Source: a virus. From it: a stretch of DNA of 27,838 nt. Position numbers and translations under genes: made by a program. The notes beneath the pieces were generated by a model. The model saw only the letters and a program-made list of their open reading frames with translations. It had not been told where the DNA came from and searched no databases. Within the stretch, counting starts at the first letter, position 1, and each line of letters begins with the position of its first letter. This document shows positions 10,812-27,838 of this stretch, one piece after another. The stretch is from the IMG/VR virus record IMGVR_UViG_3300042483_000232, positions 1 through 27,838 of that record; one strand, given 5' to 3'.

Positions 10812-11393
10812 TCAAGGCTTATTGGTGCATTTAAGCGCTAACTGCCAGTAATACTTGCCGACTACAGGCCAGGTAATTTGGTTCTCTTCGTCAAACCATG
10901 TCTTCCCACCTGGATCGTTAGGGATTACATCAAACACATTGACAATGTTATTAAACTCTAATGAGTTCAGTAACTTCTCAACTCGTGTTTCATGACAATT
11001 CCAATGATGGTGAGCACCATCCCACCATTCCAAACCAGGAACATGTGTATCAGGAACGTCTAAATGTTCCATAACTGACTCCACCAACCACCACGGTTCT
11101 TGCCCGTCTTTCCATCGCTTAATAGTTTTGTGCACATCTGGACCAACAATAAGCATTGGTGCATTGGGTTTAGCAATGCGTTGCATATCTTTAAGGAAAG
11201 TAGAAACTTCTAGCCAAGGGATGTGTTCCAACACATGTCCCATGTATATGGCATCAAAGTAATTGTCTTCAAATGGGTATGGTTGATTAGGAGTTACTTT
11301 GACATCTGGTCTAGTGTCCTCTGTTTCCCATGTGTCGGCGTTTACCCAACCTTCTGCGTAGTGTGTTCCACAACCAACATTTAAAAGTTTCAC
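10812..11393 (-). CDS. Class I SAM-dependent methyltransferase
   Basis: A 193-residue protein of the Methyltransf_11 type. Motif I is LLNVGCGTHYAEGWVNAD (about 3-20), the SAM-binding loop, and FDAIYMGHVLEHIP (about 46-59) is the motif IV/VLEH signature. The start is GTG 11393, which overlaps the stop of the dioxygenase gene by 1 nt with GGAGGA 7 nt upstream. The C-terminal half is rich in Trp and His (EWWDGAHHHWNCHE). It is the last of three overlapping genes (glycosyltransferase, PhyH dioxygenase, methyltransferase), so it probably methylates a sugar or small molecule made or attached by the others. The substrate is unknown. Confidence 0.85.
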   Translation of the reverse strand: MKLLNVGCGTHYAEGWVNADTWETEDTRPDVKVTPNQPYPFEDNYFDAIYMGHVLEHIPWLEVSTFLKDMQRIAKPNAPMLIVGPDVHKTIKRWKDGQEPWWLVESVMEHLDVPDTHVPGLEWWDGAHHHWNCHETRVEKLLNSLEFNNIVNVFDVIPNDPGGKTWFDEENQITWPVVGKYYWQLALKCTNKP

Positions 11394-12157
11394 TAAACAG
11401 TTCCTCCGTCAATTGGGAAGTACCAACCACCACCATGTGGTAAAGCAGTAGGCATATCTTCTCTGTGGTTAACTCCTGAGTAATGTGCAATTAGCGATTT
11501 ACGCACCATTCCACTAACATTTGGTTCAGAACCACGATGTACTAAGCGACCATGCCAAAAAAGAACATCACCACGTTTTGGAAGGTATGTAACAACTTCC
11601 GCATTACGTGTCTCAATTTCTTTTTCAAATAGTGGAGTTAAAATGCGCTCACTATATTTAGGCCAACGATGATCTTGTTCTTCTGGTTTTAGTGCTGCAA
11701 GAATCTTTTCTTGTGTAACAACAGGCCAACGATGTGACCCACGCACAAATTGAAAGGGACCAGAATCAGGATGTATATCTTCTAGAGCAATCCAAATAGC
11801 AGCGTAGTAGTCACCAACGTGTTTAGGGTTGAGGTAAGTGTCTTGGTGCCAATTACGGCGAGTAGTAACCCAACCAGTTAGGTTTAAATGAACAGCCGCT
11901 GGTTCACCAATCAAACGCTCTAGCGTGTCATTAATGTTGTGATGTGTCAAAATATTCATTACTTCTGGGTGACGACGGTAAGGAGTGCAATCAGGCCAAC
12001 CACCAGGTCGTTCTTCATTATGTTCAACCCAACACTGCTCGTAAGCAACTAGCAGGTCTTCTGGAAGAAAGCCCTTTTTAATAACAAACCCATCATCATT
12101 CCAATCGGCTGCACTGGGTACTGGAGCAGGAACCGTAAGGTCTTCTAAAGTAATCAT
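11393..12157 (-). CDS. PhyH-type Fe(II)/2-oxoglutarate dioxygenase
   Basis: A 254-residue enzyme of the phytanoyl-CoA dioxygenase (PhyH) family, which hydroxylates diverse small molecules using Fe(II), O2 and 2-oxoglutarate. The iron ligands are H104 and D106 in NWHQDTY and H207 in HGRLVHRGSEPN; R219 in VRKSL probably binds 2-oxoglutarate. DSGPFQFVRGSHRW (131-144) is the family core motif. ATG 12157 overlaps the glycosyltransferase stop (ATGA) and its own stop abuts the methyltransferase GTG. The tight coupling suggests a shared pathway of glycan or metabolite modification. All catalytic residues are present. Confidence 0.9.
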   Translation of the reverse strand: MITLEDLTVPAPVPSAADWNDDGFVIKKGFLPEDLLVAYEQCWVEHNEERPGGWPDCTPYRRHPEVMNILTHHNINDTLERLIGEPAAVHLNLTGWVTTRRNWHQDTYLNPKHVGDYYAAIWIALEDIHPDSGPFQFVRGSHRWPVVTQEKILAALKPEEQDHRWPKYSERILTPLFEKEIETRNAEVVTYLPKRGDVLFWHGRLVHRGSEPNVSGMVRKSLIAHYSGVNHREDMPTALPHGGGWYFPIDGGTV

Positions 12158-13236
12158 AACTTGGCAATCTGTGTCATTACGTCATTCCAATCTGATCCAC
12201 GAACTTCCATTGAAAACACATCTCTTACAATTTCATAGTTTAGCATTGCCTCATCTTTTCGCATCTGTGGATTAATGAGTTCCCCAATATGGTACTCCCA
12301 CTCTTCCGCAGTTCTTGCAATTCTACCCACACCTTTACTTGCTAGGTATTCGTACTCTGGTGAAGGTGATGAAATAAAAGGAACACCCGACCCTGCGTAC
12401 TCTAAACCTTTAATAAAAGATTTTGCATTATTAAACGGAACAGAACTTAAAGGAACTATACCTATATTAATTGGTACAAATATCTTAGGGTAATCCAAAA
12501 TTGGAACTAATGGCATAACCGTGCATATGTCTCTTGCAACGCCTAGTTGCTCATGTGCGAATGGGGCATTAGGGGTATGTCCTGAATGATGAAATTTAAG
12601 ATTATGTTTCTTAAATATGTTTTTCATAAATGGGCGCAGTTGCTCTAGATCACCAGACCTCCAAGGAGTTGCCCCAACCCACCCGACTACTGGTTTATGT
12701 TTAGCATTGTCTGTTCGCATTTTCCAGCGTTCCATGTCTAACCCATTACGAACTAAGAATACATTTTTACGCTTTGCTGCATAATAATCGTGTAGAAATG
12801 GGGTAGAAGTAATAACAGCGTCTGCTTCCATAATCATTTGGAAGTAGTGATCCCTATTATTTTCTTCATTTCTTTTAGGATCAGTAGCATCAAAAGCACG
12901 ATTATTGGGATCAAGTCCTTCAAAAAAGTCATCAATATCAACAACTATCTTCTGCCCTTTAGCCTGTGCTTCACGTACATGTTGAGCAATGCTCTTACGC
13001 ATTATTAGTTTAAATACCAGAATATCCCAACCGTGTATGGCTTGATCTTCATTTAGTAATTGCCCATACCCGTACTCGTCGCTCCAGCGAGGGAATCCCA
13101 TCCCCACCTTCCAGCCAAACTTCTCTAATTCACGCATGGGCAATAAGCATCGGTACCATGCACAGCCATTTGGTTGTAAAGGTTTTGTTCCAGTTGCCCA
13201 GTCGTATGTTAAGAAACTAATCGTTTTTGTAGCCAT
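12154..13236 (-). CDS. GT-B glycosyltransferase
   Basis: A 360-residue protein with the GT-B two-domain pattern. The N-terminal half has GCAWYRCLLPMRELEKFGW and VVDIDDFFEGLDPNN. The linker carries ADAVITSTPFLHDYY and VFLVRNGLDMERW. The C-terminal half has PVVGWVGATPWRSGDLEQL and the nucleotide-sugar region NIGIVPLSSVPFNNAKSF followed by IKGLEYAGSGVPFISS, similar to GT4-type enzymes, including the conserved K and E. AAGG lies about 7 nt before ATG 13236. It heads the overlapping trio with a dioxygenase and a methyltransferase. Such phage enzymes may decorate virion proteins, DNA bases or host surface glycans; the target cannot be told from sequence. Confidence 0.85.
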   Translation of the reverse strand: MATKTISFLTYDWATGTKPLQPNGCAWYRCLLPMRELEKFGWKVGMGFPRWSDEYGYGQLLNEDQAIHGWDILVFKLIMRKSIAQHVREAQAKGQKIVVDIDDFFEGLDPNNRAFDATDPKRNEENNRDHYFQMIMEADAVITSTPFLHDYYAAKRKNVFLVRNGLDMERWKMRTDNAKHKPVVGWVGATPWRSGDLEQLRPFMKNIFKKHNLKFHHSGHTPNAPFAHEQLGVARDICTVMPLVPILDYPKIFVPINIGIVPLSSVPFNNAKSFIKGLEYAGSGVPFISSPSPEYEYLASKGVGRIARTAEEWEYHIGELINPQMRKDEAMLNYEIVRDVFSMEVRGSDWNDVMTQIAKL

Positions 13237-15407: not shown

Positions 15408-16496
15408 CTAACTAATGAAAGACAGTGCAATATCTCTTTTTTGCTTTAGTATCTTCCACCTAAAACTATAAGCCTGTTTCCCATTAACATGATTACTAGG
15501 AATCAAATCCAAAGCATCTTCGTAATTGTCCAAGGAGTGGTTTCCTTGAATTTGCATACTTGAAATCGTTTGAAAGAATTCATTGTTAGCAGACTCAATA
15601 TCCATTTGAATTTCATCATCAAGATTGCCGTATTCTGGGTAACAGGACATCAGACCTGCTAAAGACATATGAGCCATTTTTTGTTTGACAAAATTAAGCA
15701 ACTCTTGGTTTGTCTCAACAACACCAGCAGGTCGCCTGCGAGCATCTGTATTGCCTTTTAGGTATTCAGCAACTTGCATATCTACTTGATCTGCAACCAA
15801 TGACTTATCAAAACCTATTTGTTTAAGAAATTCTTTAGCATCCAAAGCAATCGGGTCTTTACCCTTAAATGGAGCATTGGCTAATGCAGCCCATTCAGTT
15901 ATCAAACGAAACATCTCGGATAAGGTTGCGGTACAACCAGGGATAGGGTCGCCATTTATCCAATGATCTTTTATGAGTTCAACCCGTTTAAGATAAGTAT
16001 AAACGAGGCTTGATACCCCATTTATGTTGATTATAGGTTCATAAACGATAATGTCGTCTAGTTCAAAAACATCGTAATAAGGTTTTTCACCTTCGGTCAA
16101 ATAGCGCTCAACACCGTAAAAAGTGTTGTCACAACGCCAACTATTAACGTCCGTGTATATGGGCTTAGAGTTCATAAAGAGAAAAATGCCCCTATCCGAA
16201 TAATCCAAACCTGGATTCCAATATGGAATTATTCGCTCAAAAGGCAATAAACTGACATATTCCTCTTTGTCACCACATATGGCAACAAGGCTATGCACTG
16301 TTTGAAAATCCCAATATAACCAAAATGCTATAAGCAGTTTTCCATCGGGCATACGATGCAAGTCATAGAAAGTAAATTCTTCATCACCTGCTGGTGTCCT
16401 ACGAAACAATTTCAAGGAATCATCCGTAATACTGTCAAGCATATAAAATAATTTACGATCTTTTAGATTGTTTGTATTATAGTTTTTTGTTTCCAT
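15408..16496 (-). CDS. Unknown 362-residue protein
   Basis: A soluble mixed alpha/beta protein with no family recognised. The first ~180 residues are rich in aromatic and acidic residues (YDLHRMPDGKLLIAFWLYWDF, VFELDDIIVYEPI); the second half looks helical (TLSEMFRLITEWAALANAPF, ELLNFVKQKMAHMSLAGLM). ATG 16496 follows the adhesin stop by 8 nt, with AGGG about 8 nt before it; TAGGGT 5 nt before the ATG could alternatively act as a leaderless -10. Its position after the fibre adhesin could suggest a fibre assembly or chaperone role, but this is only context. Confidence 0.65.
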   Translation of the reverse strand: METKNYNTNNLKDRKLFYMLDSITDDSLKLFRRTPAGDEEFTFYDLHRMPDGKLLIAFWLYWDFQTVHSLVAICGDKEEYVSLLPFERIIPYWNPGLDYSDRGIFLFMNSKPIYTDVNSWRCDNTFYGVERYLTEGEKPYYDVFELDDIIVYEPIININGVSSLVYTYLKRVELIKDHWINGDPIPGCTATLSEMFRLITEWAALANAPFKGKDPIALDAKEFLKQIGFDKSLVADQVDMQVAEYLKGNTDARRRPAGVVETNQELLNFVKQKMAHMSLAGLMSCYPEYGNLDDEIQMDIESANNEFFQTISSMQIQGNHSLDNYEDALDLIPSNHVNGKQAYSFRWKILKQKRDIALSFIS

Positions 16497-16504
16497 AATT
16501 TACC

Positions 16505-18700
16505 CTATGGTCCGTAGTAAGTGAAGTATACAATACCAACAACGCCTGGTTGACCGACCTGAAAAGCACCCATCCCACCAGCACCACCAGCGCCAATATT
16601 GTATGGGGAGCCGTTTGCTCCTTGAGTAGCATTACTACCACCACCACCACCGCCAGCATTTCCCCAAAAACCATTTCCAGGACCACCATTACCAGAAACT
16701 GCATTAGTGGATGGCGCTGAACCATTGCCGCCATTGCCATCATTACCTGCTCCACCACCCGATGCTTTGTAAGTGGTCTTGCCAGCGTAATAGAAAGCAG
16801 TAGTACCACCTGTATATGCAGGGTTATCTCCGTAACCAACATTGCCACCTGGACCGTCAACAGTACCACCGCCACCGCCACCAGCCGCAATTTGAACAAA
16901 CTGCGGTCCGCTAAAGAAACAGGCACCACCAGGTGCACCAGGACTCAGTGCTGGATCGTAGGTACCAGTGGTGTACGTTGTATTGTAACCACCAGCGCCA
17001 GGGTAACCAACATTAATGGTCAATGCGCCATCGGCTGCCAAAAACGCAACATTGGTTCTAGTAACAAGACCACCAGCGCCGCCTCCAGAGCCAGCCCAAG
17101 CACCTCCTCCACCTGAACCAATTAGATAAACTTCAGGCAATGGATGAGGATATGTACCACCAACAGTGGGAACTGTAAAATAGTGAGTTCCAGGAGTTCG
17201 CTCATTGTATTCTTTTTTGCCCCAACTTCGGAATGAAGTAACACCAGAGGTCGTAGTACCATTAGCATTTACCGCTACAACACGAACATAAAACAAATAC
17301 CCATTACCATTAAGTGCTGTGTTTTTTGGAAGAGTAGGGTAAGCAGACTTTGCCGCAGATTGGGTAGTGACAGTACCAGCGTATACTTGAGTATAATCTC
17401 CAGGAGAATTAAAGGTATTTGTTGTATTGTATTGGAAATAAACTTCCGTGCTTGTACCATTAGCGCTTATAGTTGCGTTAAGGGTTGCTATACTTTCAGT
17501 AAAGTTAGTTACTGCATTAATTGTGGCTGAAGGTGCAGACAGCGTAGTAAATGTGACAGCAGTTGAAGCGGGACCTGGACCAACACTATTTACTGCCCTT
17601 AGATAAATGCTGTATGCAACATAAGGTGACAAACTGCCAATAGTCACAGGGCTAACAGCATCAGCAGGACTTAACGCAGTCCAAGACGAGTTATTAAACG
17701 AATACTCGTAGTTTGTTATTGCTGAAGTACCTACGTCTGTTGGTGCAGTGAACGAAATAGCAACAGACGTAGTGGATGGTGCGGCACTAAGGGAAGTTGG
17801 AGCAGTCTTAGGTACAGACAGTGTCGTAAATGAAGTAATACCAGAGGTAGCAATTCCCACAGAGTTGGTTGCTTTAAACTGTACATAATAAGTAACCCCG
17901 TTACTTAAGCCTGTAGCATTGTATGTACATAGAGTGTCAGTTGCTCCTGATGCAATGGTTGCGTTAGTAGAGGCAGTAAACCACGCTGAGTTCCCCGAAG
18001 CAAACGTAGAAGAAGTAGAGTACTGAAACTGAACAGTCGTGATGTTAGTGCCACCCGTAGTGTTTACAGTACCTCTCAAAACAGCAGTGGTTTGATCGTA
18101 AGTAACGACAGAAGCAATTGTGACAGTAGGCGTATCTAGCGCTACGGGGGAGTATACAAAACTCTCAATGGGTACGCTTACGGCATTAACAACAATTCCG
18201 TGCTTTGTTGCCCTTGTTGGGGCAGTAGGTGTTTGTTGTATTTGGACAACATCATCACTTGCTTTTTTTGCGGTAGCCGTTATTTTACCAGCACTATTAG
18301 TAACTACTTGGATGTATTGAATACCAGCAGAAGTGTCTCCTATAGCAACACTACCCATTTCTGAAACAACACCGTTAGCAGATTTTAGTAATTTTAGATT
18401 GGTTGAAATAACAACAGCCGCCCACCAATTATCAGAATCCTCTACCCAAAAAGAAGTTCCCCATCCAACGCTAGTTCCACCACCATCAGCACGGATAGTC
18501 ACACTGTTGGTGTTTGCTGAAAAGGTTGCGAGTGCATATGTTGTCGGCGTAGTGAGAGCCACAGCCTTATTACTTTGAAGTCCCCACGTATCCCTGATAT
18601 TGCTCCATCTAGGATTTAGGGAAGTTCCACCAGTACCCGTAAACTCATCCGTAAATGCTGGGTTAACGCCAGGATTTGAGGCAACGATGCCAGTAAGCAT
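16505..18700 (-). CDS. Tail fibre/adhesin with LamG-like, FN3 and Gly-rich domains
   Basis: A 731-residue tail protein. The frame is open to a TTG at 18733, but ATG 18700, 2 nt after the upstream stop, is preferred. Domains in order: an N-terminal concanavalin/LamG-like domain (about 15-185; FTDEFTGTGGTSLNPRWSNI), three fibronectin-III-like domains (about 190-295, 300-390, 390-495; TYYVQFKATN, SIYLRAVNSVGPGP, FYVRVVAVNANG), then a Gly-rich domain (about 510-731) with HYFTVPTVGG, long GGGGG runs and a final GVVGIVYFTYYGP. The last resembles Gly-rich host-range adhesins in which Gly strands pack as polyglycine-II. FN3 domains are common in tail proteins and may bind surface sugars. It probably recognises the host receptor. 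Confidence 0.8.
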   Translation of the reverse strand: MLTGIVASNPGVNPAFTDEFTGTGGTSLNPRWSNIRDTWGLQSNKAVALTTPTTYALATFSANTNSVTIRADGGGTSVGWGTSFWVEDSDNWWAAVVISTNLKLLKSANGVVSEMGSVAIGDTSAGIQYIQVVTNSAGKITATAKKASDDVVQIQQTPTAPTRATKHGIVVNAVSVPIESFVYSPVALDTPTVTIASVVTYDQTTAVLRGTVNTTGGTNITTVQFQYSTSSTFASGNSAWFTASTNATIASGATDTLCTYNATGLSNGVTYYVQFKATNSVGIATSGITSFTTLSVPKTAPTSLSAAPSTTSVAISFTAPTDVGTSAITNYEYSFNNSSWTALSPADAVSPVTIGSLSPYVAYSIYLRAVNSVGPGPASTAVTFTTLSAPSATINAVTNFTESIATLNATISANGTSTEVYFQYNTTNTFNSPGDYTQVYAGTVTTQSAAKSAYPTLPKNTALNGNGYLFYVRVVAVNANGTTTSGVTSFRSWGKKEYNERTPGTHYFTVPTVGGTYPHPLPEVYLIGSGGGGAWAGSGGGAGGLVTRTNVAFLAADGALTINVGYPGAGGYNTTYTTGTYDPALSPGAPGGACFFSGPQFVQIAAGGGGGGTVDGPGGNVGYGDNPAYTGGTTAFYYAGKTTYKASGGGAGNDGNGGNGSAPSTNAVSGNGGPGNGFWGNAGGGGGGSNATQGANGSPYNIGAGGAGGMGAFQVGQPGVVGIVYFTYYGP

Positions 18701-18702
18701 AA

Positions 18703-19065
18703 TTAACTCGTGATGTTTCCGATAAGTACCCAAGTGTTGGCTGCATACTTAATCAAGGTAGCGGCTGCATACTGACCATTAAGTTTTAATTTGCCACTTT
18801 CCGAATGGAGCGTTGCATTCCCCGCAGCAATGCTTACTATGTTTCCCGTTGGACTAGTCTGTAAAAGATCTACACGGTCACCAATAGCAAAGTTTGCTTC
18901 AGAATCATTTGGTACAGTAATTTCAAGCGCACCAGAAACGCCGATAGTTAGAACTTTACCCAAATCATCAATGTCAAGGATTCTCCCAGCAGATACAGCA
19001 GCAACCTGTGAGTTAAACCCAGTAAGGTTTCTACTAGCGGAATTTTCAGAAAGGCGAGAAATCAC
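18703..19065 (-). CDS. Small beta-rich tail-fibre-associated protein
   Basis: A 120-residue protein resembling a domain common at the ends of phage fibres: GKVLTIGVSGALEITVPND, then FAIGDRVDLLQTSPTGNIVSI, KLKLNGQYAAATLIKYAANT and WVLIGNI. GTG 19065 overlaps the upstream stop by 4 nt (GTGA). Here the domain is a separate gene rather than part of a fibre, between another small tail protein and the large adhesin. It probably caps or connects fibre parts; the precise role is unknown. Confidence 0.7.
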   Translation of the reverse strand: MISRLSENSASRNLTGFNSQVAAVSAGRILDIDDLGKVLTIGVSGALEITVPNDSEANFAIGDRVDLLQTSPTGNIVSIAAGNATLHSESGKLKLNGQYAAATLIKYAANTWVLIGNITS

Positions 19066-19391
19066 GAAATCTCTGCCCCAAACAATGAGAACGAGAAGTT
19101 AGCAGTTGAGGCATAGACAGTAACTACGTCAGTAGCCGCCAGGGTAAGACCAACACTAAGAGTTACCGTGTCCTTTGCTCCGATGTTGGCATCGTAAATT
19201 ACATAGTGCTGATTAGCAAGTGATGCCCCAGCAGGGCGCACAGCCACTCGGTAAGTAGCCGCAGTAGTTCCTCGGTTACATACAGAAAGGGTTGATGCCA
19301 CTACTGATTTTCCAGCACCAATTGTCAAAATATCCGTAGCAGTAGTTGCTGACGGGGCAGATTGGGCTAATACTTTATATGCTTGGGCCAC
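19062..19391 (-). CDS. Small beta-rich tail protein
   Basis: A 109-residue protein of a kind I recognise as frequent in aquatic phages next to fibre genes: MAQAYKVLAQSAPSATTATD, then VASTLSVCNRGTTAATYRVAVRP, ASLANQHYVIYDANIG and a final VVTVYASTANFSFSLFGAEIS. The pattern is an immunoglobulin-like beta-sandwich. The start is GTG 19391 with AAGGAG about 6 nt upstream. It opens the tail adhesin group and is preceded by the only non-coding gap above 100 nt in the window. The exact structural place is unknown. Confidence 0.75.
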   Translation of the reverse strand: MAQAYKVLAQSAPSATTATDILTIGAGKSVVASTLSVCNRGTTAATYRVAVRPAGASLANQHYVIYDANIGAKDTVTLSVGLTLAATDVVTVYASTANFSFSLFGAEIS

Positions 19392-19497: not shown

Positions 19498-19788
19498 TTA
19501 GTTAAACCACCAGAAATGCTTGAGGATTGAAAGAGATGCCAGAACAACCCACAATACATTAAAAAGAATGATTGTTGGTAATGTCTTTTTCGTAGATGTC
19601 CAAATAAGAGCAACGCTGGAAATGATGGCAAAGATGTAGAGCCACCAGAACTGCTTGCCAAGCAATAAGCCAGGAAAGATGATTGCAATCTTGGTGGCAA
19701 ATCCCCAAGCCTCTACGGTATTGACTCTTGTCCAGTACTCTTTACTGGACATTGTCTTAACGGCTGTAACGATCTTACTAAGAAACAT
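19498..19788 (-). CDS. Small membrane protein, unknown
   Basis: A 96-residue protein with a soluble N-terminus of about 25 residues and two or three hydrophobic segments (about 31-44, 47-63, 70-90), rich in Trp, Ile and Leu (KQFWWLYIFAIISS; LFNVLWVVLASLSIL). GGGAG lies about 6 nt before ATG 19788. It overlaps the end of the upstream gene by 11 nt. It could be a holin-like or superinfection protein; the sequence does not decide. Confidence 0.7.
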   Translation of the reverse strand: MFLSKIVTAVKTMSSKEYWTRVNTVEAWGFATKIAIIFPGLLLGKQFWWLYIFAIISSVALIWTSTKKTLPTIILFNVLWVVLASLSILKHFWWFN

Positions 19789-20494
19789 TCATACTCCCTA
19801 AAGCAGCATTAAGTTTTTCCTCAAAGGTCAAGGTTGGGTACTTGTTAACCACAGTCACAATCCACTGTTTAAACTCAGCAGAGATAGCAGGATGTGCTGG
19901 AATCAACCGATAGTTTGCTTGTCCTTTTAAGAACATTGCTAAAGGCATGTCTGGCATAGCATCAATCTCGTCTAAGACGGCTTGAGGAATTTCAAGCAGG
20001 TCAATTGCCATTTTTGAGTAAATTGCCATTGGGTGATCACTATTAAATGGTTCTTCAACCATAAAAGACCATTCACGCATGTTTTTAAACAGTTGGTAGA
20101 TGGTGCACCCATACCACATAGCACTTGGAGTAGGGCTTTTTTCCAAATCAGGAGTCCCTGGACTACCATCTTTACCTAGTGCTTTAACTTGAACGTAATC
20201 AATAAAGAAATGTGGTACTACAGAAATAATGTGCCCCCATTTTTCAAATAAAGTCACTTTCATCTCAAAGTCATCAAAACCCGATTTGTGTGCTACGTCC
20301 CAAGTTTGATTTGCGTAAGGTGTTCCCAGAACAGGACTAAGGCTGCCATATGAGAGGTTTTCGCAGCGGTCTCCTCGGGGCGCATTACGCCCTTCTTCAG
20401 TAAACTCACATTTCAAAAGAATAAAAAGTAATGGATTTTCTGATGGCACAGAGTCCAACAGTAGGTTATCCCAACCTAAGTCTTCTATTGTCAT
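19778..20494 (-). CDS. Unknown 238-residue protein of the halogenase cluster
   Basis: A soluble, acidic protein with no family recognised. Aromatic and Met-rich segments (HIISVVPHFFIDYVQVKAL, AMWYGCTIYQLFKNMREWSF, DAMPDMPLAMFLKGQANYRL) suggest a folded globular enzyme or binding protein rather than a fibre. It starts at ATG 20494 with AAGGAG 6 nt upstream and overlaps the preceding stop (ATGA). Its tight coupling to the DUF6065-like/halogenase/oxygenase genes suggests it may act with them. Confidence 0.65.
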   Translation of the reverse strand: MTIEDLGWDNLLLDSVPSENPLLFILLKCEFTEEGRNAPRGDRCENLSYGSLSPVLGTPYANQTWDVAHKSGFDDFEMKVTLFEKWGHIISVVPHFFIDYVQVKALGKDGSPGTPDLEKSPTPSAMWYGCTIYQLFKNMREWSFMVEEPFNSDHPMAIYSKMAIDLLEIPQAVLDEIDAMPDMPLAMFLKGQANYRLIPAHPAISAEFKQWIVTVVNKYPTLTFEEKLNAALGSMNVS

Positions 20495-20697
20495 GTTGTC
20501 TCCTTGAGTTGCTTCTCTACTATTTGTAATTTATGACAGTGACTACTGAGGTTATTTTGAAAAACCATATTTGGTTCATTATATGCAGAAAAGCCTACAT
20601 CAAGCGTTTCTGGATCTTTCCCCATCTCTATGCACATTCTGAAAAGTTCATCCAAGATAGATTGGCGAATTGCTTCTAATTCACTTTTTCTTGTCAC
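20491..20697 (-). CDS. Unknown 68-residue protein
   Basis: A small helical charged protein (ELEAIRQSILDELFRMCIEMG; NNLSSHCHKLQIVEKQLKETT). The start is GTG 20697, 17 nt inside the end of the upstream gene, with a weak GGTGG site. Its stop overlaps the next start (ATGA). The layout supports a real coupled gene, but no function can be assigned. It may be an accessory or dimerisation peptide for its neighbours. Confidence 0.6.
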   Translation of the reverse strand: MTRKSELEAIRQSILDELFRMCIEMGKDPETLDVGFSAYNEPNMVFQNNLSSHCHKLQIVEKQLKETT

Positions 20698-21472
20698 GAG
20701 ACCACCACCTACGCTTATTGTCTTCTTTCAACCGAGCATCTACTCGTATTCTTTCTTTCCTATACGTGGCACCCGTTTCTTTAGGGGAAATAAACCCTGA
20801 TCCAAATCCAGTACTTGCATAATACTTAAACTCTGACTCATCATTAAATAAAACTTTTGTAAAGTCCGAATCCCTCTTGAATGGGATAAGTTGGGCAATC
20901 GGGGTGTTGTACTTCAGCGCAAATGGTCTATCTCCCGTTAGATTTAAAACAATATTTATTGCGTGGTAAAAGTCTGTGTGCACAATTGCTGGAACTACAG
21001 TGTAGTCTTCGCTAGGTTCCCAGTAGCAAGGAAGTATTAGCGTTGACCATCCTGGAGCAGTCTCCATTCTCCACGGATTAACTAATTTTGGATACTGTCC
21101 TGTTTCAATTTTTCGTACACCCGTCATAGGACAGGTACCAGTAGATTCATGACTAAATCCCGACACCACCCCAATTGGTATTGTCTGCCCACTGACTACC
21201 GCTGAAGGGTAAAAATCATCTGATCCATTTTCCCACGTACCATTACCATCTGGGCGAAAACGATAATTTGTCCACAAGGGAAGAGTCACACCAGCCGCAA
21301 GAAGGTCAATGGTTCCAACACATTTCCGTAAGGCCGCTCCCTCTTTAGTAACACGCTTGAACCAGTTTGGCAAGTTTGCCGTGCTATTTGCAAAAGGAGC
21401 CGCCGACATCAACCTATTGTCTGTCGGGGTAAACCGTATTTCCCCTGGCTTTACTTTGCTTCTTTTACCCAT
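20681..21472 (-). CDS. DUF6065-like protein beside halogenase
   Basis: A 263-residue protein resembling the DUF6065 group as I remember it. Signature segments are LPNWFKRVTKEG (about 34-45), LPLWTNYRFRPDG (64-76), NPWRMETAPGWSTLILP (132-148), VVPAIVHTDFYHAINIVL (159-176) and NTPIAQLIPFKRD (189-201). The family has no established activity. The fold implied is beta-rich and cupin- or jelly-roll-like, which is a guess. The C-terminus is very basic (DARLKEDNKRRWWSRDKKK). ATG 21472 follows the halogenase stop by 1 nt, so the two are probably co-translated. I suspect it is a functional partner or substrate-handling protein for the halogenase and oxygenase. Confidence 0.55.
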   Translation of the reverse strand: MGKRSKVKPGEIRFTPTDNRLMSAAPFANSTANLPNWFKRVTKEGAALRKCVGTIDLLAAGVTLPLWTNYRFRPDGNGTWENGSDDFYPSAVVSGQTIPIGVVSGFSHESTGTCPMTGVRKIETGQYPKLVNPWRMETAPGWSTLILPCYWEPSEDYTVVPAIVHTDFYHAINIVLNLTGDRPFALKYNTPIAQLIPFKRDSDFTKVLFNDESEFKYYASTGFGSGFISPKETGATYRKERIRVDARLKEDNKRRWWSRDKKK

Positions 21473-21473
21473 T

Positions 21474-22967
21474 TTAGTTCCACTCCTCGTCTATCAGTTT
21501 GATTTCCCGCAATGCTTGAGCATGGTCAACTAAAGTATGGTCGTGTCTTTGGTGTTTATACTCACTTACTTGTTTGTCTATAGACTCACGCAAATGAAGC
21601 GACTCAATCGCCCTCGTGCAAGCATCCACGCTAATAATTCCCTGCCCTTGCCCTACGTGGGCTAAGTGTGGAGCACCAAACATTTCTCCGTTATTATTAG
21701 CAAAATCATACCTACTAGGTGAGCGTTCAGACCACACATCAATTAATTCTTGCAATTCCGAGTTAACGGGCATACGAGACATTTCCTGCCAAAACTTTGA
21801 ATCTTGCCTATCGCTATAGTAGTGCAGCCGTATCATTGTCAAAATATTACGCATTAGTGCATCTGAACCTTTATTGTAATGTTTCTGAGAAGCGGTATGC
21901 GAAGGAAGGTATGACGCAAGATACTGAATAGAATTTCTTACTTGCTGAATTGTAGAACCAATACTGGTTGCTTCTAGTGGTTCCACAAAGGAAGAAGCCA
22001 AACCAACAGCAATACAATTCTTTTGCCAAGGCTCTTTAAGGTGACCAGCATCAAACTTGATCACTCGTGGGTCGTCAGGTAGTTTGTACCCTGACATTTG
22101 TTCCGCTTCCCGAACAGCCTCGTCTACCGAAATAAATGCATCACAAAATACATAGCCATTACCCCTGCGTTCCTGCGTAGGAATTTCCCACATCCAACCA
22201 GAAGACGCTGCACGAGCACGGGTATACGGACGAATTTGTCCGTTTGGGTCACTTTCTGTTGGAAAAGGAATGGCTGAGTTGCAAAGCAAAAACTCACTAA
22301 AAGAATTCCACTCCACATTGCCAACTTCATTCATTAGCACTTTATTAAAACCAGATGCATCAAACCAAAAATCAGCCTCTAATACATCGCCTTGTTGAGT
22401 ACGTACTGAACTAATGAGTCCGTCTTCGTCTTTTGTAACAGACTCAAATTCTCCATCAATAAACTTGATGTGTCTTTTAAAAGCCAACTTTGTAAAGTAC
22501 TCATTGAGTTTAACGGTGTCAAAATGAAACTGGTTGGTGTTCTTATGCAAATTGTCTTTACTGATTTTGTTTTGCACCAGACCGACACTACCTGTTTGGC
22601 TTGTCAGTGTTTTTCCAGATTCAATAATTCCCATATATGTCGCAAAGAGGCCATGACAAAAGATGTCATCAACCTGACCTACACTGTGGAAATAATCTTT
22701 TGTATGTGTTGTCCAGTTTTCATAACGAATTCCGTACTTATGGGTAGCCAATGTCTCTACCAACATCTCCTCAAGAGGGATGTCAATTAGTTCCATAAAC
22801 TGTCTCCAGTGTTCTGTAGAACCTTCACCAACCCCAATAATACCTATTTTAGAAGACGATAAAACTGTTATTCCACACACAGGAAAAGCCTTACGTAAAA
22901 TTAGTGCAGTTATTAACCCTGCTGTGCCTGAACCTACTATGCCAAAGTTTTGTATACGGTCTTTCAT
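21474..22967 (-). CDS. Flavin-dependent (tryptophan-type) halogenase
   Basis: A 497-residue protein of the Trp_halogenase family, which uses FADH2, O2 and halide to halogenate aromatic substrates. The frame is open to a TTG at 22997, but ATG 22967 has AGGAG 5 nt upstream and is chosen. Visible: FAD motif GIVGSGTAG (9-17), GVGEGST (45-51), the catalytic-type Lys77 in HKYGIRYENW, the halogenase motif GWMWEIP (257-263), which distinguishes the family from monooxygenases, and FVEPLEATSI (327-336), where Glu332 matches the catalytic Glu of PrnA; the following Ser and Gly of PrnA are Ala and Ser here. Length is near the usual ~510-540. A separate flavin reductase is needed and is not seen. A halogenase from a cyanophage is known, so the activity is plausible; the substrate and halide are unknown. 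Confidence 0.9.
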   Translation of the reverse strand: MKDRIQNFGIVGSGTAGLITALILRKAFPVCGITVLSSSKIGIIGVGEGSTEHWRQFMELIDIPLEEMLVETLATHKYGIRYENWTTHTKDYFHSVGQVDDIFCHGLFATYMGIIESGKTLTSQTGSVGLVQNKISKDNLHKNTNQFHFDTVKLNEYFTKLAFKRHIKFIDGEFESVTKDEDGLISSVRTQQGDVLEADFWFDASGFNKVLMNEVGNVEWNSFSEFLLCNSAIPFPTESDPNGQIRPYTRARAASSGWMWEIPTQERRGNGYVFCDAFISVDEAVREAEQMSGYKLPDDPRVIKFDAGHLKEPWQKNCIAVGLASSFVEPLEATSIGSTIQQVRNSIQYLASYLPSHTASQKHYNKGSDALMRNILTMIRLHYYSDRQDSKFWQEMSRMPVNSELQELIDVWSERSPSRYDFANNNGEMFGAPHLAHVGQGQGIISVDACTRAIESLHLRESIDKQVSEYKHQRHDHTLVDHAQALREIKLIDEEWN

Positions 22968-22977
22968 TATTCTCCTA

Positions 22978-23559
22978 TCAGTGGTACCAAGTAACAAGTG
23001 AGTGCTTTACACCCTTAGTCACAGGGTGTGCAATATGCAAATACGGGAAGTTTGATGGGAACATCAGAACCCTTCCGCATATTGCCTCAACAGTAACATC
23101 AAATTGTGGAAACTCTAGTTGACCACCCCCTTCTGGGGTAGACAAAAATGACACCATACTGTAGATCCTACGGTTATCAGGACCGTGGTCAGAGTGGGGT
23201 TTGTATTCAGATTGTTCTAAATACTTTAAAAGAGAATACGCTTCATGCACGGCAGTCGGAATTAAATATTCATGCCTGTAGTCTTCTGAGACTTCTTCAA
23301 TAGGGTTGCGAATTGTTTCTGTAAAAAACTTTGACAATTCAGTTTCTGGATATGGCTTCATCAGTGGGATGAGAGAACAATTTAAAGAAGTTCTATGCGA
23401 TGTTGTTTTGTTATTCCCTACAGTAGAACCATCCCATGATAATTCTGACCATTCGGAATCTATTTCTTTTTCTAGGCTTTGCAAAAATTGACTTGCATTA
23501 TCCTCGGTAAAAACGTCTTCGTAAAGGGAGATGCACGTCCCTAGTTTTGTAAGTTTCAT
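22978..23559 (-). CDS. 2OG-Fe(II) oxygenase, prolyl-4-hydroxylase-like
   Basis: A 193-residue enzyme of the 2-oxoglutarate/Fe(II) superfamily. The double-stranded beta-helix ligands are H122 and D124 in YKPHSDHG and H175 in YLHIAHPVTKG, with K185 where Arg usually binds 2-oxoglutarate. RIYSMVSFLSTPEGGGQLEF and GRVLMFPSNFPY are the usual core strands. ATG 23559 overlaps the upstream stop (ATGA). It lies directly before the halogenase. This family hydroxylates proteins or small molecules; here fibre proteins or a halogenated or hydroxylated metabolite are candidates. The Lys replacement occurs in some active members. Confidence 0.85.
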   Translation of the reverse strand: MKLTKLGTCISLYEDVFTEDNASQFLQSLEKEIDSEWSELSWDGSTVGNNKTTSHRTSLNCSLIPLMKPYPETELSKFFTETIRNPIEEVSEDYRHEYLIPTAVHEAYSLLKYLEQSEYKPHSDHGPDNRRIYSMVSFLSTPEGGGQLEFPQFDVTVEAICGRVLMFPSNFPYLHIAHPVTKGVKHSLVTWYH

Positions 23560-23954
23560 GTTACCGTAAACTCTCCCTCGTAGTAGACCTTACTATTATT
23601 ATCAACAATTCTAAACTTATGCAAACCTAGCATATGGTATCGTGAACGAAACATAAGCGAATTCTTTGTTCTTACCATCGGCTTTATACTTTGAGAAGAA
23701 GAGTTTAAATCCGTTACTTCCAGGTGGGTATCCTTTGGGAAGTCTATGAATTCGTTTGTAACGTCCAGCCTGTGTATAAAGCCTGCCTTTACTTCATCCA
23801 TACAGTCGGAAAATTCATCTTCTGGAAAAGACTTTATACAGATTTTATCAATACCATCTTCTATGCGAATTGATAATTGGTATTCTTTTGACAGTTTAAT
23901 TGCCTCATCTGGCATAGCCCCCATACTAGATGGGACGCACACAAACCGTTTCAT
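23556..23954 (-). CDS. Unknown 132-residue protein
   Basis: No family recognised. The C-terminal part is beta-like (LHKFRIVDNNSKVYYEGEFTV) and resembles an Ig-like or carbohydrate-binding strand pattern. The N-terminus MKRFVCVPSSMGAMPDEAIKL is helical later. ATG 23954 overlaps the preceding stop (ATGA), and its own stop overlaps the oxygenase start. The coupling places it in the same unit as the halogenase cassette. Confidence 0.65.
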   Translation of the reverse strand: MKRFVCVPSSMGAMPDEAIKLSKEYQLSIRIEDGIDKICIKSFPEDEFSDCMDEVKAGFIHRLDVTNEFIDFPKDTHLEVTDLNSSSQSIKPMVRTKNSLMFRSRYHMLGLHKFRIVDNNSKVYYEGEFTVT

Positions 23955-24178
23955 CCAGCCTCGGTTAATTTGCTTTCAATTAGTTCCACACTCCCAAGAA
24001 GAGTTTCTAGTCTCTGCTGTTCTCCTATGAGAACTTCAGACATAGTATAGTTTTCTGGGTCAAAAGTATCTGGGTCAATACCTGAACGAAGAAGCAAGTG
24101 AAAAACTTCTGACTTAACATTTGTCAAACTGTTTTCCAGTATGGATTTCTTTTGTTGTGCGCTTAGACCGTAGTCCAT
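23951..24178 (-). CDS. Unknown 75-residue helical protein
   Basis: A small acidic, predicted helical protein (AQQKKSILENSLTNVKSEVF; LIGEQQRLETLLGSVELIESKL) that could form a coiled coil. It follows the His-rich fibre gene by 11 nt, with GAGGAG 6 nt before ATG 24178. A small helical protein directly after a fibre gene could be a fibre-assembly chaperone, which is inference from position and composition only. Confidence 0.65.
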   Translation of the reverse strand: MDYGLSAQQKKSILENSLTNVKSEVFHLLLRSGIDPDTFDPENYTMSEVLIGEQQRLETLLGSVELIESKLTEAG

Positions 24179-24189
24179 GTTTGTCTCCT

Positions 24190-25899
24190 CTATGAGTTAA
24201 TGAGTAAGTATGCCGAGCCAGTGGTAGCACCAACAGTACCATATGACCCTGCTGTTGTATCGTACACAATTGTATTAGCGACTGCGTCTGATACTACCAA
24301 TATTGCGCCACCACCGCCACCACCGCCAGCATCACCTGTTGCTCCCGTAGAACCAGCAGTGCCAGGAGTACCAGGAGTACCGTTTGGGGCAGTTCGTGCT
24401 GGTGCACCTGCTCCTGTATTTACACCATCATTGTGTCCGCCAGCCCCACCTGGATAGTGTGCAGAAGCATCTGGGTTACCGTGGTGGTGGGGGTGGTGAT
24501 GGTAGTCAGCATGAGAAGTAGGCAGAGTAGGTGCATGCGTGTGTGTATGGCCTGGGTGTCCATAATGAAAATGGGTGTGCCCGTCATGCCCACCAAAAGA
24601 CCCATGATAATACAGGGTGTGGTGGTGTGCGTTTCCTGATGCTTCATGACCTGATGCATGTGTATTTGGTTTTTTATGGTCATGGAGCGGATAATGCACC
24701 CAGTGACCATCACCGTTGTAATGGGGTCTCCATGCATGCCAGTAGTGCCCATCCCAGTGATGGGCACCACCATGTGGACCATCGTTGTGTGGGTGATGGC
24801 TGTGTCCGCTGGTATGCCAGTGGTCACCTTCACGGTTATTACCCTTGTTGTGGAAATGGGGTTTTGTTGCGTGAAAATGACCATCAGAATGTCGTGTTGT
24901 ATGACTGGTGTAGTTATGCGTTCTAGGGGCATGGCTTACATGGGGGGCAACATGGTGGTGGTCTGTGCGACTAGGTGCAGGCTGTCCATAAATATGACCA
25001 TTTGCTCCTTTGGGCACGTGTTCACCAGTTCCACCTGCTCCACCTGCTCCACCAGGGCTTCCAGGGCTTCCAGCAGAACCAGCAGAACCATGACTACCAA
25101 CAGACATGACTTTTCCCGCTCCTAGAATTGTTTTAGCAACCACAAGAACTACTCCACCTCCATTTCCTGCTGCCCCACCTGCCCCACCTGCCCCACCTGT
25201 ACCCGCTGTACCCGCTGTACCCGCTGTACCACCTGCGGCGGTAGGGTTGGCTGAACCATCTGGTGCAGGGCCGCCCTTTCCTCCAGGCGCAAGGACCGTA
25301 GTTGCACTAGGGGCATATCCACCATTACCGCCAATTCCTCCTGCTTTGCCAGGCCATGACGCTGGGGTCGTACTTGGTGTTCCTGCTGTTCCAGCAGCAC
25401 CTGCTGTTCCAGCAGCACCTGTAGCGCCTGTAGCGCCAGCGTTTCCTTTTGAACCACCACCGACAGGGATGATTGTCCCAGAAGGATCTACCATGATTCC
25501 AGAAAGCATCATATTGATATTTTTATACAAGTATGAAGGCAGTTGTGGGATAGTGGGAGCCGTTGTTCCTCCGCCCTGACCACCTGCTCTGTACGTTATT
25601 GCTGACTGAGAATGCCCTTTGACTGTTCCATCTGAAACAGTTGACGCAGACGGACTTACAACCCCAGAAGACACAGCACCTATGCCCATGTGTCCATCTA
25701 GGGTCAGTGTGTTTCTTACAAATACTCTGTAGCCGTTAGTGAGTAGTACTCCTGATGAGGTGATTGTTAGCGAATTATAAAACATGTCTGAAGTCAAAGT
25801 AACGACTGAAGAAACGGTGACATCTCCATCAACGCCTGATCCATATACAGAATCGTTTGCAATTCTCGCAACACTTTTTTCTACTCTTGAAATTGGCAT
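24190..25899 (-). CDS. Collagen-like, His-rich tail fibre
   Basis: A 569-residue fibre. The N-terminal ~75 residues (SVYGSGVDGDVTV... LTNGYRVFVRNTLTLDG) match the equivalent part of the preceding gene, so the two are paralogues. Residues about 147-290 are collagen-like Gly-x-y runs (GATGATGAAGTAG) with a GGGVVLVVAKTILGAG strand. Residues 294-489 contain 53 His in 196 positions with repeated HxH motifs, and residues about 490-530 are again collagen-like. The C-terminus is AILVVSDAVAN...GSAYLLINS. ATG 25899 follows the upstream stop by 1 nt. HxH motifs hold metal ions in the T4 long-fibre tip, so a metal-stabilised trimeric shaft is possible. Confidence 0.75.
   Translation of the reverse strand: MPISRVEKSVARIANDSVYGSGVDGDVTVSSVVTLTSDMFYNSLTITSSGVLLTNGYRVFVRNTLTLDGHMGIGAVSSGVVSPSASTVSDGTVKGHSQSAITYRAGGQGGGTTAPTIPQLPSYLYKNINMMLSGIMVDPSGTIIPVGGGSKGNAGATGATGAAGTAGAAGTAGTPSTTPASWPGKAGGIGGNGGYAPSATTVLAPGGKGGPAPDGSANPTAAGGTAGTAGTAGTGGAGGAGGAAGNGGGVVLVVAKTILGAGKVMSVGSHGSAGSAGSPGSPGGAGGAGGTGEHVPKGANGHIYGQPAPSRTDHHHVAPHVSHAPRTHNYTSHTTRHSDGHFHATKPHFHNKGNNREGDHWHTSGHSHHPHNDGPHGGAHHWDGHYWHAWRPHYNGDGHWVHYPLHDHKKPNTHASGHEASGNAHHHTLYYHGSFGGHDGHTHFHYGHPGHTHTHAPTLPTSHADYHHHPHHHGNPDASAHYPGGAGGHNDGVNTGAGAPARTAPNGTPGTPGTAGSTGATGDAGGGGGGGAILVVSDAVANTIVYDTTAGSYGTVGATTGSAYLLINS
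24433..25020 (-). other. His-rich segment with repeated HxH motifs
   Basis: Codes for residues 294-489 of the fibre: 53 of 196 residues are His by my count, many as HxH or longer (GHFHA, PHFHN, DHWHTSGHSHHPH, HTHFHYGHPGHTHTH, YHHHPHHHG). Gly, Asn, Asp and aromatic residues fill the rest and there is almost no hydrophobic aliphatic core, so a metal-bound fibrous fold or a disordered chain is expected. Confidence 0.85.
25172..25227 (-). repeat. 9-bp tandem repeats coding Gly-rich turns
   Basis: gccccacct is repeated three times (25172-25198), followed by acccgctgt three times (25201-25227). Read on the minus strand they encode Gly-Gly-Ala and Thr-Ala-Gly triplets of the collagen-like fibre. 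The perfect identity indicates slippage-prone sequence. Confidence 0.85.
25382..25417 (-). repeat. 18-bp tandem duplication in the collagen-like region
   Basis: cctgctgttccagcagca occurs twice in perfect tandem (25382-25399 and 25400-25417), coding the Gly-Ala-Ala-Gly-Thr-Ala repeat. It suggests recent change in fibre shaft length. Confidence 0.85.
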
Positions 25900-25900
25900 A

Positions 25901-26665
25901 TCATACCTGCGACATATAGTGGACGGTTCCTGCGTTTTGACCAGTTACATCTGTAGATATTCCAGATGGCAACGCTTCAGAAGATGATACAACAAGAATT
26001 ACACCACCTCCAGCAGGAGCAGTTCCTGGCGCTTTAATGTAAGCCGTACCTGTTGCTGGTCCAGAAATGTAACGAGCAGCAATGATAACTACTCCGCCAC
26101 CTGCTTGGCTAGCCCCACCTGCACCACCTCGTAGAAATGTAGGTCCACCAGATGCAGTAACTGAATAACCAGTTACTGCTTGACTTGGGATTTTAAAGTA
26201 GTTACTTCCACCAAGAGTTGCTAATGGGGCAGTCGCTGCAAACCCAGTAGCAGAACCACCAAGGGAGTGTGATACCGCAGTAGATGCCGCTCCACCTTGC
26301 TTAATTGATCCATCAGTAGCAAAACCTGTAATGTAGCCGATTATTGAGTTGTTCCCCATGAACTTCAATGTGCCTTTAACAAATATCCTGTAGCCATTAG
26401 GCGCAAGACGAACGCTCGCATCAATCGTCAAATCATTCAAATACAAATCTCGTGTCATGGAATAGGCACTTGAAGATGGAGCCATGCTCAAAACGGTTGT
26501 AGTTCCGTCTAGTACGGCATCACCATCAGCACCAGTTCCGTAGACAGAGTCAACGCCTTCGTTGTAATAGGCATTCCATAAAGAACCATCCCATTGCCAA
26601 CTCTTAGAGCCAACAGTAAAGATTTGGTTTGTGTATGGAGAAGCAGGGAAAGTAATTGCTGCCAT
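25901..26665 (-). CDS. Tail fibre protein, paralogue of the His-rich fibre
   Basis: A 254-residue protein. The first ~25 residues (MAAITFPASPYTNQIFTVGS, SWQWDGSLWNAYY) are a common fibre start that links to other fibre parts. Then DSVYGTGADGDAVLDGTTTVL and LNDLTIDASVRLAPNGYRIFVKGTL match the following gene. The C-terminal half is Gly-rich beta (RGGAGGASQAGGGVVIIAARYIS; AGGGVILVVSSSEALP), as in the long fibre but without collagen or His-rich insertions. It starts at ATG 26665, 2 nt after the upstream stop, with AGGAA about 10 nt before. It may be the unexpanded form of the same fibre. Confidence 0.75.
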   Translation of the reverse strand: MAAITFPASPYTNQIFTVGSKSWQWDGSLWNAYYNEGVDSVYGTGADGDAVLDGTTTVLSMAPSSSAYSMTRDLYLNDLTIDASVRLAPNGYRIFVKGTLKFMGNNSIIGYITGFATDGSIKQGGAASTAVSHSLGGSATGFAATAPLATLGGSNYFKIPSQAVTGYSVTASGGPTFLRGGAGGASQAGGGVVIIAARYISGPATGTAYIKAPGTAPAGGGVILVVSSSEALPSGISTDVTGQNAGTVHYMSQV

Positions 26666-26667
26666 GA

Positions 26668-27838
26668 CTAACTATTCCTGTAGCCATAGACACGAATAGT
26701 TCCACCCGTCATAGTGCCTCCAGCGGGCGCAATTGTAAAAGCAGTGTAAGAATTTGAGTTGGCTATTCTGCCGTTATACGTGCCGTTGTAAGTTAAATAT
26801 GCAACACCAGGTGCGGTTACATAAGTTTGTTTTGTTAGAAATGGGTTAATCAAAGTAAAGTTTGCGGCTGCACCATTAAACTGGTCCCCGCCGCCAACAT
26901 TAAAAAAACTACTACCGTTGTTTTGATTGGTACTGGCAACTGTTGTATTTGTGTAGTTTGCGTAAGTATAATTTCCGTAGTATCCAGTAGTGGTTGAACC
27001 CAAAACAAGGGTTAAATTTTCATCTGCACTCATACCTCCACCCGACCAAATAACCTGATAAGCGTCATAGGTGGCATTAAATGCCGAAGAAACTGTGACC
27101 GATGAAACAGCACTACCGACTGTTTGTGACTTGACAAAAACCAGCCCTGAGTTACCGACAGCGGTACCACCCGACACCTGCTGCCAAGCAGACCCACCAT
27201 AGACATACTCAAGACCTGTATCTGTTTCATAGACATGTTGACCAGTCCACGGAGAAGATGGACGAGTAGTAGATGTTGCTTGATATGGTGACATTGTTCC
27301 GCCACCTAGTTCAACCCATGCTGAGTTGTAGTAGATGAATGCTGCACCAGTAGTCGTGTTAAACCAAAGATCCCCTTCTGATGGAGAAATGGGGGCAGTT
27401 GCTGAAACTTCTAGGCTTGCGCCACCACCACCCGAAGCAGATGCTGATGTCCATAGCGACCCATTGTATGTAAGGACATCATTTGTGTTAGGTGTTGCTA
27501 CAGAAACATTAGATAGGTCATCTAAGGTGGCATTGAGCGAAACAGATGCGCTTGCACCTTCACTAGGGGTAAAATCAACAGAAATACCTGTACCTGCGGT
27601 AACTGATGAGACATAATCACCAACGGTGTCAGTACCTAAGTTGATTTGATCATTTACCCAAAGTGTTCCGTTGTATTTAAGGAAATCTCCAGATACTTTA
27701 TCAACAAGGGAAACATCGTGCATCCACTCAAGGTGGTTGTTGCCTGGAATAATTCTTATTGCAATTTGACCAGTGGAAGCATGACGAACGGTAATGAATG
27801 CAACAGCAAGGTCATGTTGTGGTCTTACATTTGTGAGT
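26668..27838 (-). CDS. Tail fibre protein (start beyond the window)
   Basis: The frame stays open past the ATG at 27723 to the right edge (reading LTNVRPQHDLAVAFITVRHA and on), so the gene begins outside and at least 389 residues are visible. The YNGTLWVN, LTYNGSLWTS, GDLWFNTTTGAAFIYYNSAWVEL and GQHVYETDTGLEYVYGGSAW units are the small Trp/Gly/Asn repeats typical of fibre shafts and collars. The C-terminus (ENLTLVLGSTTTGYYGNYTYANY; GTIRVYGYRNS) resembles a receptor-tip or jelly-roll domain. It is first in the visible fibre operon. Confidence 0.75.
   Translation of the reverse strand, partial: LTNVRPQHDLAVAFITVRHASTGQIAIRIIPGNNHLEWMHDVSLVDKVSGDFLKYNGTLWVNDQINLGTDTVGDYVSSVTAGTGISVDFTPSEGASASVSLNATLDDLSNVSVATPNTNDVLTYNGSLWTSASASGGGGASLEVSATAPISPSEGDLWFNTTTGAAFIYYNSAWVELGGGTMSPYQATSTTRPSSPWTGQHVYETDTGLEYVYGGSAWQQVSGGTAVGNSGLVFVKSQTVGSAVSSVTVSSAFNATYDAYQVIWSGGGMSADENLTLVLGSTTTGYYGNYTYANYTNTTVASTNQNNGSSFFNVGGGDQFNGAAANFTLINPFLTKQTYVTAPGVAYLTYNGTYNGRIANSNSYTAFTIAPAGGTMTGGTIRVYGYRNS

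Follow-up and report, generated by a model that had tools for sequence, protein, structure and literature searches.

Why should a phage carry a halogenase and a hydroxylase between the genes of its tail fibres? The question is raised by the window analysed here (the whole of IMG/VR virus record IMGVR_UViG_3300042483_000232, linear, 27,838 bases, from a freshwater phage), in which a cassette on the minus strand, at positions 19778-23954, encodes a flavin-dependent halogenase, a 2-oxoglutarate (2OG)-Fe(II) oxygenase and a DUF6065-like protein, together with smaller conserved proteins. An initial annotation of this DNA offered two answers, namely that the enzymes modify residues of the fibres or other receptor-binding parts, or that they make a halogenated, hydroxylated metabolite during infection. 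In our judgement there is about an even chance that the cassette is a virion-tailoring island, which would hydroxylate and halogenate the adjacent receptor-binding tip adhesin. Behind this reading stand the conserved linkage of cassette and tip, the intact catalytic motifs, the composition of the tip and the recurrence of the arrangement in a phage lineage unrelated to this one. The role of the tip as substrate, the residues modified in it, the tasks of the helper proteins and any gain to the phage are what we infer.

According to the open reading frame (ORF) listing, all cassette genes are present where the initial annotation had placed them, on the minus strand and overlapping or abutting one another, and transcription runs from high to low coordinates. 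In that direction the order is a fibre gene of 254 amino acids (aa), the 569-aa fibre (hereafter the tip), a 75-aa gene, c132, the 2OG oxygenase, the halogenase, the DUF6065-like gene, a 68-aa gene, c238, c96, two fibre-type genes and a minor-tail-like gene. Fibre genes do flank the cassette on both sides, as had been claimed (24190-27837 upstream; the fibre-type and minor-tail-like genes downstream), and two points are added here, the 75-aa gene and the extreme His content of the adjoining fibre.

With the halogenase alone as query, 80 IMG/VR loci were collected and their neighbours clustered, and one block recurred among them (fibre, 254-aa fibre, His-rich fibre, small gene, c132, 2OG, halogenase, DUF6065-like gene, small gene, c238 and c96). 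These loci comprise 37 non-redundant halogenases, 25 of them with at least 4 kb on both sides, and in all 25 a His- and Gly-rich tip lies within 5 kb; as a background, 15 of 2,098 ORFs of at least 250 aa outside the fibre families have a tip-like His/Gly composition. Approached from the fibre side (four scans with the fibre as query, giving 99 tip clusters together with the earlier loci), the halogenase is found in 93 of the 99, with a median separation of 1,354 bp and none exceeding 3,943 bp, and the six clusters that have none are those in which the contig ends near the tip. The 2OG gene is present in 89 of these 93, the DUF6065-like gene in 81 and c132 in 71. The gene order is variable, with the cassette downstream, upstream or on the opposite strand and the 2OG gene before or after, and the linkage is kept throughout; more than 20 order strings were recorded, some of which differ only through contig ends or undetected genes. 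Random placement of these genes relative to fibres, which the initial annotation had named as evidence that would count against it, is not what we find, since the linkage is kept over many contigs, several orders, two fibre families and two halogenase clades.

The tip itself is of unusual composition. On average, tips contain 7.9% His, whereas the fibre encoded immediately upstream has 0.7% (an 11-fold difference, in the same direction in 81 of 81 non-redundant pairs, p = 5e-15), while Tyr falls to 0.62-fold and Trp is unchanged. Of 41 aligned tips, 40 have His at H368 and H371, and no Tyr or Trp of the insert is comparably constant. Pro has a context of its own: G-x-P-G motifs average 3.9 per tip versus 0.07 in the preceding fibre and, compared with shuffled sequences, Gly is commoner after Pro (1.41-fold) and rarer before it (0.41-fold). 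X-Pro-Gly is the context used by collagen prolyl 4-hydroxylases. Among the candidate residues listed initially (Tyr, Trp, His and Pro), His and X-Pro-Gly therefore fit the composition of the tip, whereas neither Tyr nor Trp is enriched, and some tips have hardly any of either; one tip has 46 His, no Tyr and no Trp in its His-rich stretch, with a halogenase in the same locus. A Tyr- or Trp-specific target is unlikely as a general rule, given that Tyr is depleted and Trp not enriched. Some tips also bear Cys-His clusters. In the AlphaFold model the Gly-rich scaffold is mostly confident, with predicted local distance difference test (pLDDT) values of 72-97 for blocks in residues 21-310 and 79-97 for residues 481-569, and the His-rich insert (316-477) is poorly predicted. 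A fold search of this model against the PDB returned no solved match, an absence that is no proof against a polyglycine II (PGII) fold; as the search gave no solved homologue, we do not claim a gp38/PGII identity for the tip. The family has a sole His-poor member (L262:542-1849, in L262/L320; 0.7% His), whose 35 kb record contains no halogenase and whose contig starts just upstream of the tip, where relatives carry the cassette.

Halogenase and 2OG oxygenase both keep the catalytic residues of their families. Against PF04820 the window halogenase scores 347 bits (curated cut-off 21), and it is complete, as initially described, with the flavin adenine dinucleotide motif, the catalytic Lys (Lys77 counted from the ATG), GWMWEIP and FVEPLEATS all present. 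In 137 unique relatives the catalytic Lys and GxGxxG are invariant (137/137 each), E342 (the second Glu of the FVEPLE motif) is kept in 134 and W270 (WxWxIP) in 120, with F in 15. Bacterial relatives recovered by profile patterns were limited to four loci, all on contigs of metagenome-assembled genomes (MAGs), and the tree was midpoint-rooted because there was no bacterial outgroup; in it the window-type halogenases form one clade, separate from the MAG contigs. Each of 20 records of 89-203 kb has exactly one halogenase and none has a flavin reductase of family PF01613, so that reduced flavin would have to be supplied by the host or by a reductase of another family. The 2OG protein matches PF13640 with 45.2 bits (cut-off 27; E 1.9e-11), its iron triad, proposed as H122/D124/H175, proved invariant or nearly so among homologues, and its nearest solved relatives are prolyl 4-hydroxylases. 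The DUF6065-like label holds as a weak resemblance and nothing stronger: PF19541 is matched by 2 of 28 homologues (best E 0.0065), and the window protein itself has no match to it at E 0.1 or E 1. The dUTPase model (PF00692) matches 13 of the 28 homologues (best E 1e-4), and the predicted structure (pLDDT 84) has the dUTPase jelly-roll fold, with Z of about 10 to many dUTPases over residues 8-217; this fold is a prediction, and a shared fold shows no function. A DUF6065-like homologue also lies beside a transaldolase gene in cyanophage S-RIM4 (L087:7917-8711), in whose record no halogenase was detected. Neither c132 nor c238 matched any Pfam family.

The same association occurs in cultured cyanophages. 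VirX1, the best-studied phage halogenase and one of solved structure, matches a Syn10 ORF (L085:8511-10103) over its full length. Upstream of it in the surrounding region (L085:4830-13637) lie a second halogenase and Gly-rich tips whose ends contain His, and downstream are 2OG-type genes and a DUF6065-like gene (E 2e-17 by profile). Comparable fibre-halogenase layouts are found in S-CREM1, P-TIM40, S-RIM44, Sf-FR1, P-RSM6, S-WAM1 and S-SZBM1. Halogenases were detected in 70 of 50,697 phage records; the Syn10-type tip occurs in 12 and the S-RIM44-type tip in 8 of the records searched, and all 20 of these are among the 70, although they stand for fewer than 20 independent phages, several being duplicates or near relatives. 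In VirX1-type IMG/VR loci with sufficient flanks, a Gly-rich protein lies within 4 kb in 32 of 38. The fibre of the window has no relative in the isolate phage records, and the window-type and VirX1-type halogenases lie in different parts of the tree, with non-fibre-linked halogenases between them. Two phage lineages with different fibre families show, then, the same halogenase-fibre association. Some of the halogenase loci have further peculiarities: in S-CREM1 (L313, 11625-17115) the halogenase and the DUF6065-like gene are followed by a run of genes for eight annotated 2OG oxygenases and a JmjC protein, two loci (L462 and L470) have three Gly-rich tips in tandem with as many as four ORFs matching the halogenase profile behind them, and one halogenase is on a record filed as phage from a human faecal sample (L308, MT835646).

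Because the fibre linkage is kept across contigs, orders, fibre families and halogenase clades, modification of a receptor-binding part is the better of the two options initially offered, the chemical modification itself being our proposal. Late in infection, the tip protein would be made from the same gene block as the enzymes. The prolyl-hydroxylase-type 2OG enzyme would hydroxylate it, the likeliest sites being X-Pro-Gly in the Gly-rich scaffold or residues within the His-rich insert, while host reductases would feed reduced flavin to the halogenase. The hypohalous acid made by the latter might then be steered by the conserved Lys onto aromatic side chains of the exposed insert, where, of the aromatic residues, only His is on offer consistently from phage to phage. 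The dUTPase-fold protein and the small proteins could hold, fold or present the substrate, and the modified tip might have altered receptor or metal binding, or greater stability. A hydroxylase-halogenase pair working on one polypeptide has natural-product precedents, since the flavin brominase SrpI modifies ribosomal peptides, guided by a disordered substrate region (PMC10858898), and one halogenase acts only after hydroxylation of its peptide substrate (PMC12615548).

Several points weigh against tailoring of the tip. No product or modified virion has been seen, and both substrate and product are what we infer; moreover, we know of no halogenation of His by a flavin-dependent halogenase. The fibre profiles derive from loci that were themselves linked, which makes the reverse search less than fully independent, and in the four fibre-directed scans no intact contig with a His-poor tip and no cassette was found, truncated contigs being all that appeared. 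The halogenases of S-H38, Syn1, S-MbCM6, S-PM2, S-SSM7 and HTVC008M do not adjoin fibres, and for this reason phage halogenases are not all of the fibre-linked type. Lastly, the collagen-like fibres beside the halogenase of DSL-LC01 have almost no His, so the target residue may differ between clades.

The histidines of the tip invite another explanation, in which the tip is a metal-binding receptor-binding element and not a substrate, the redox enzymes acting elsewhere (on the host surface or on another virion protein). The conserved His positions and the Cys-His clusters of some tips agree with it, as does the phage T4 fibre protein gp37, which coordinates iron via tip histidines critical for its function (PMC6957217). 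It leaves unexplained, however, why halogenase and 2OG genes accompany this tip and not other fibres, and a metal-binding tip could still have some of its residues modified; we consider this explanation unlikely. The product of the enzymes could instead be a free small molecule, halogenated and hydroxylated, that is made or altered while infection proceeds (for host metabolism, chemical defence or exclusion of rivals), given that free tryptophan and other aromatics are the classical substrates of the family, that the cyanophage prnA gene has speculatively been proposed to serve antibiotic protection (PMC2984593), and that a cytochrome P450 gene follows the cassette in one phage group. Several phage halogenases do sit among metabolic genes, but these are elsewhere in the tree and lack the DUF6065-like gene; the block has no recurring genes for precursor supply or transport, and its linkage to one fibre type survives reorderings, which makes a free product, in our view, rather unlikely as well.

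One may also suppose that fibre regions are hotspots of gene acquisition, and that the cassette rides as a block with the host-range module without acting on it. All window-type loci have a common ancestry, their halogenases forming one clade apart from the MAG contigs, and fibre regions are exchanged as blocks. Against such hitch-hiking, reordering and inversion have left the halogenase no more than 4 kb from the tip, and the layout is repeated in another halogenase clade, whose fibres are of a different family. We judge it quite improbable, and retain tailoring of the tip as the favoured reading.

Table 1. Features of the cassette and the adjoining fibre region (positions in the window).
Feature	Position	Strand	Evidence
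Flavin-dependent halogenase, 497 aa from ATG	21474..22967	-	PF04820 1.9e-103; catalytic motifs kept in 137 relatives
Halogenase, alternative TTG start at 22997, 507 aa	21474..22997	-	
2OG-Fe(II) oxygenase, prolyl-hydroxylase type, 193 aa	22978..23559	-	PF13640; H122/D124/H175 conserved
DUF6065-like protein, predicted dUTPase fold, 263 aa	20681..21472	-	Weak PF19541, PF00692; model
c132, conserved cassette protein, 132 aa	23556..23954	-	In 71/93 tip-halogenase clusters
Small cassette protein, 68 aa	20491..20697	-	Same cluster as, and paralogue of, 23951-24178
Small protein directly after tip fibre, 75 aa	23951..24178	-	Same cluster as 20491-20697
c238, cassette protein, 238 aa	19778..20494	-	In about 50/82 halogenase loci
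c96, small conserved protein at cassette end, 96 aa	19498..19788	-	In 44 loci
His- and Gly-rich fibre-tip protein, proposed substrate, 569 aa	24190..25899	-	10% His, 20% Gly; halogenase-linked; model
His-rich insert of tip, residues 316-477, low-confidence prediction	24469..24954	-	pLDDT mostly <50; conserved His
Fibre protein before tip, N-terminal domain in common with tip, 254 aa	25901..26665	-	Fibre cluster
Upstream tail fibre, to record end, 351 aa from first ATG	26668..27837	-	phrog_9729 tail fiber 1.6e-14
Two small fibre-type genes, other cassette side	18703..19391	-	Fibre cluster
Minor-tail-like protein	16505..18733	-	

Outside the cassette, the window holds a second modification-type block (10812-13236), with a methyltransferase-like, a phytanoyl-CoA dioxygenase-like (PF05721) and a glycosyltransferase-like (phrog_7162) gene, as well as a 362-aa protein (15408-16496) that clusters with c238 and of which versions of approximately 360-390 aa precede the halogenase in other loci. 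The P450 gene mentioned above (PF00067, 1.6e-26; L038:9262-10509 and relatives among L035-L042) is found after the cassette in that phage group. An actinobacterial host is likely for the window virus, as judged from its sequence, because the large terminase is closest to those of the Streptomyces phages BRock and LuckySocke (45-47% identity) and a halogenase relative (62%) lies on an Actinomycetota MAG contig.

The enzyme families are known, and the conserved adhesin-linked cassette is undescribed as far as the open-access literature searched shows; that search returned no report of a halogenase-fibre linkage and no mention of DUF6065. Phage halogenases have so far been classed as auxiliary metabolic genes of unknown purpose, and a tie to a specific type of adhesin makes that purpose a matter that can be tested; the tie is seen when the search starts from the halogenase and also, with profiles made from linked loci, when it starts from the fibre. 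If the reading is true, phages would chemically diversify the proteins with which they grip their hosts by halogenation and hydroxylation, and the enzymes would be halogenases that naturally act on proteins, with a use in site-selective protein labelling.

The locus can finally be set beside known systems. The Gly-rich core and uncertain insert of the tip model recall T2/S16-type gp38, which has a Gly-rich scaffold and protruding variable loops at the fibre tip (PMC12892980). The window tip has, however, no fold or sequence match to it, and its insert is long and His-rich. For gp38, we know of no modifying enzymes. Collagen prolyl 4-hydroxylases are the nearest solved relatives of the window 2OG enzyme, and their X-Pro-Gly sites occur in the tip, but here the enzyme is a phage gene with a putative substrate only. 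SrpI and the peptide halogenases share with the proposed system a flavin-dependent halogenase acting on a ribosomal polypeptide with a disordered region as guide (PMC10858898), although they belong to bacterial natural-product pathways with no virion protein. The cyanophage tryptophan halogenase genes prnA (S-PM2, Syn1, S-MbCM6) are PF04820 members in aquatic phages as well, but they have been filed as auxiliary metabolic genes and lie away from fibres, with no DUF6065-like neighbour detected. VirX1, the iodinase of cyanophage Syn10 (PDB 6QGM), has an open active site and was assayed in vitro on small-molecule substrates (PMC8407142); that review does not name its native substrate or discuss its fibre context. 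The window enzyme is approximately 27% identical to the Syn10 halogenases, and Syn10 is a T4-like phage with another fibre family, yet VirX1 is of the same enzyme family and also stands after Gly-rich tips and before DUF6065-like and 2OG-type genes. We put at just under an even chance the wider proposition that unrelated aquatic phages carry dedicated halogenation-hydroxylation islands for the post-translational tailoring of the adhesins that bind their receptors (His/Pro-rich tips with halo- and hydroxy-residues), which would constitute a new virion chemistry and give VirX1 a physiological role.

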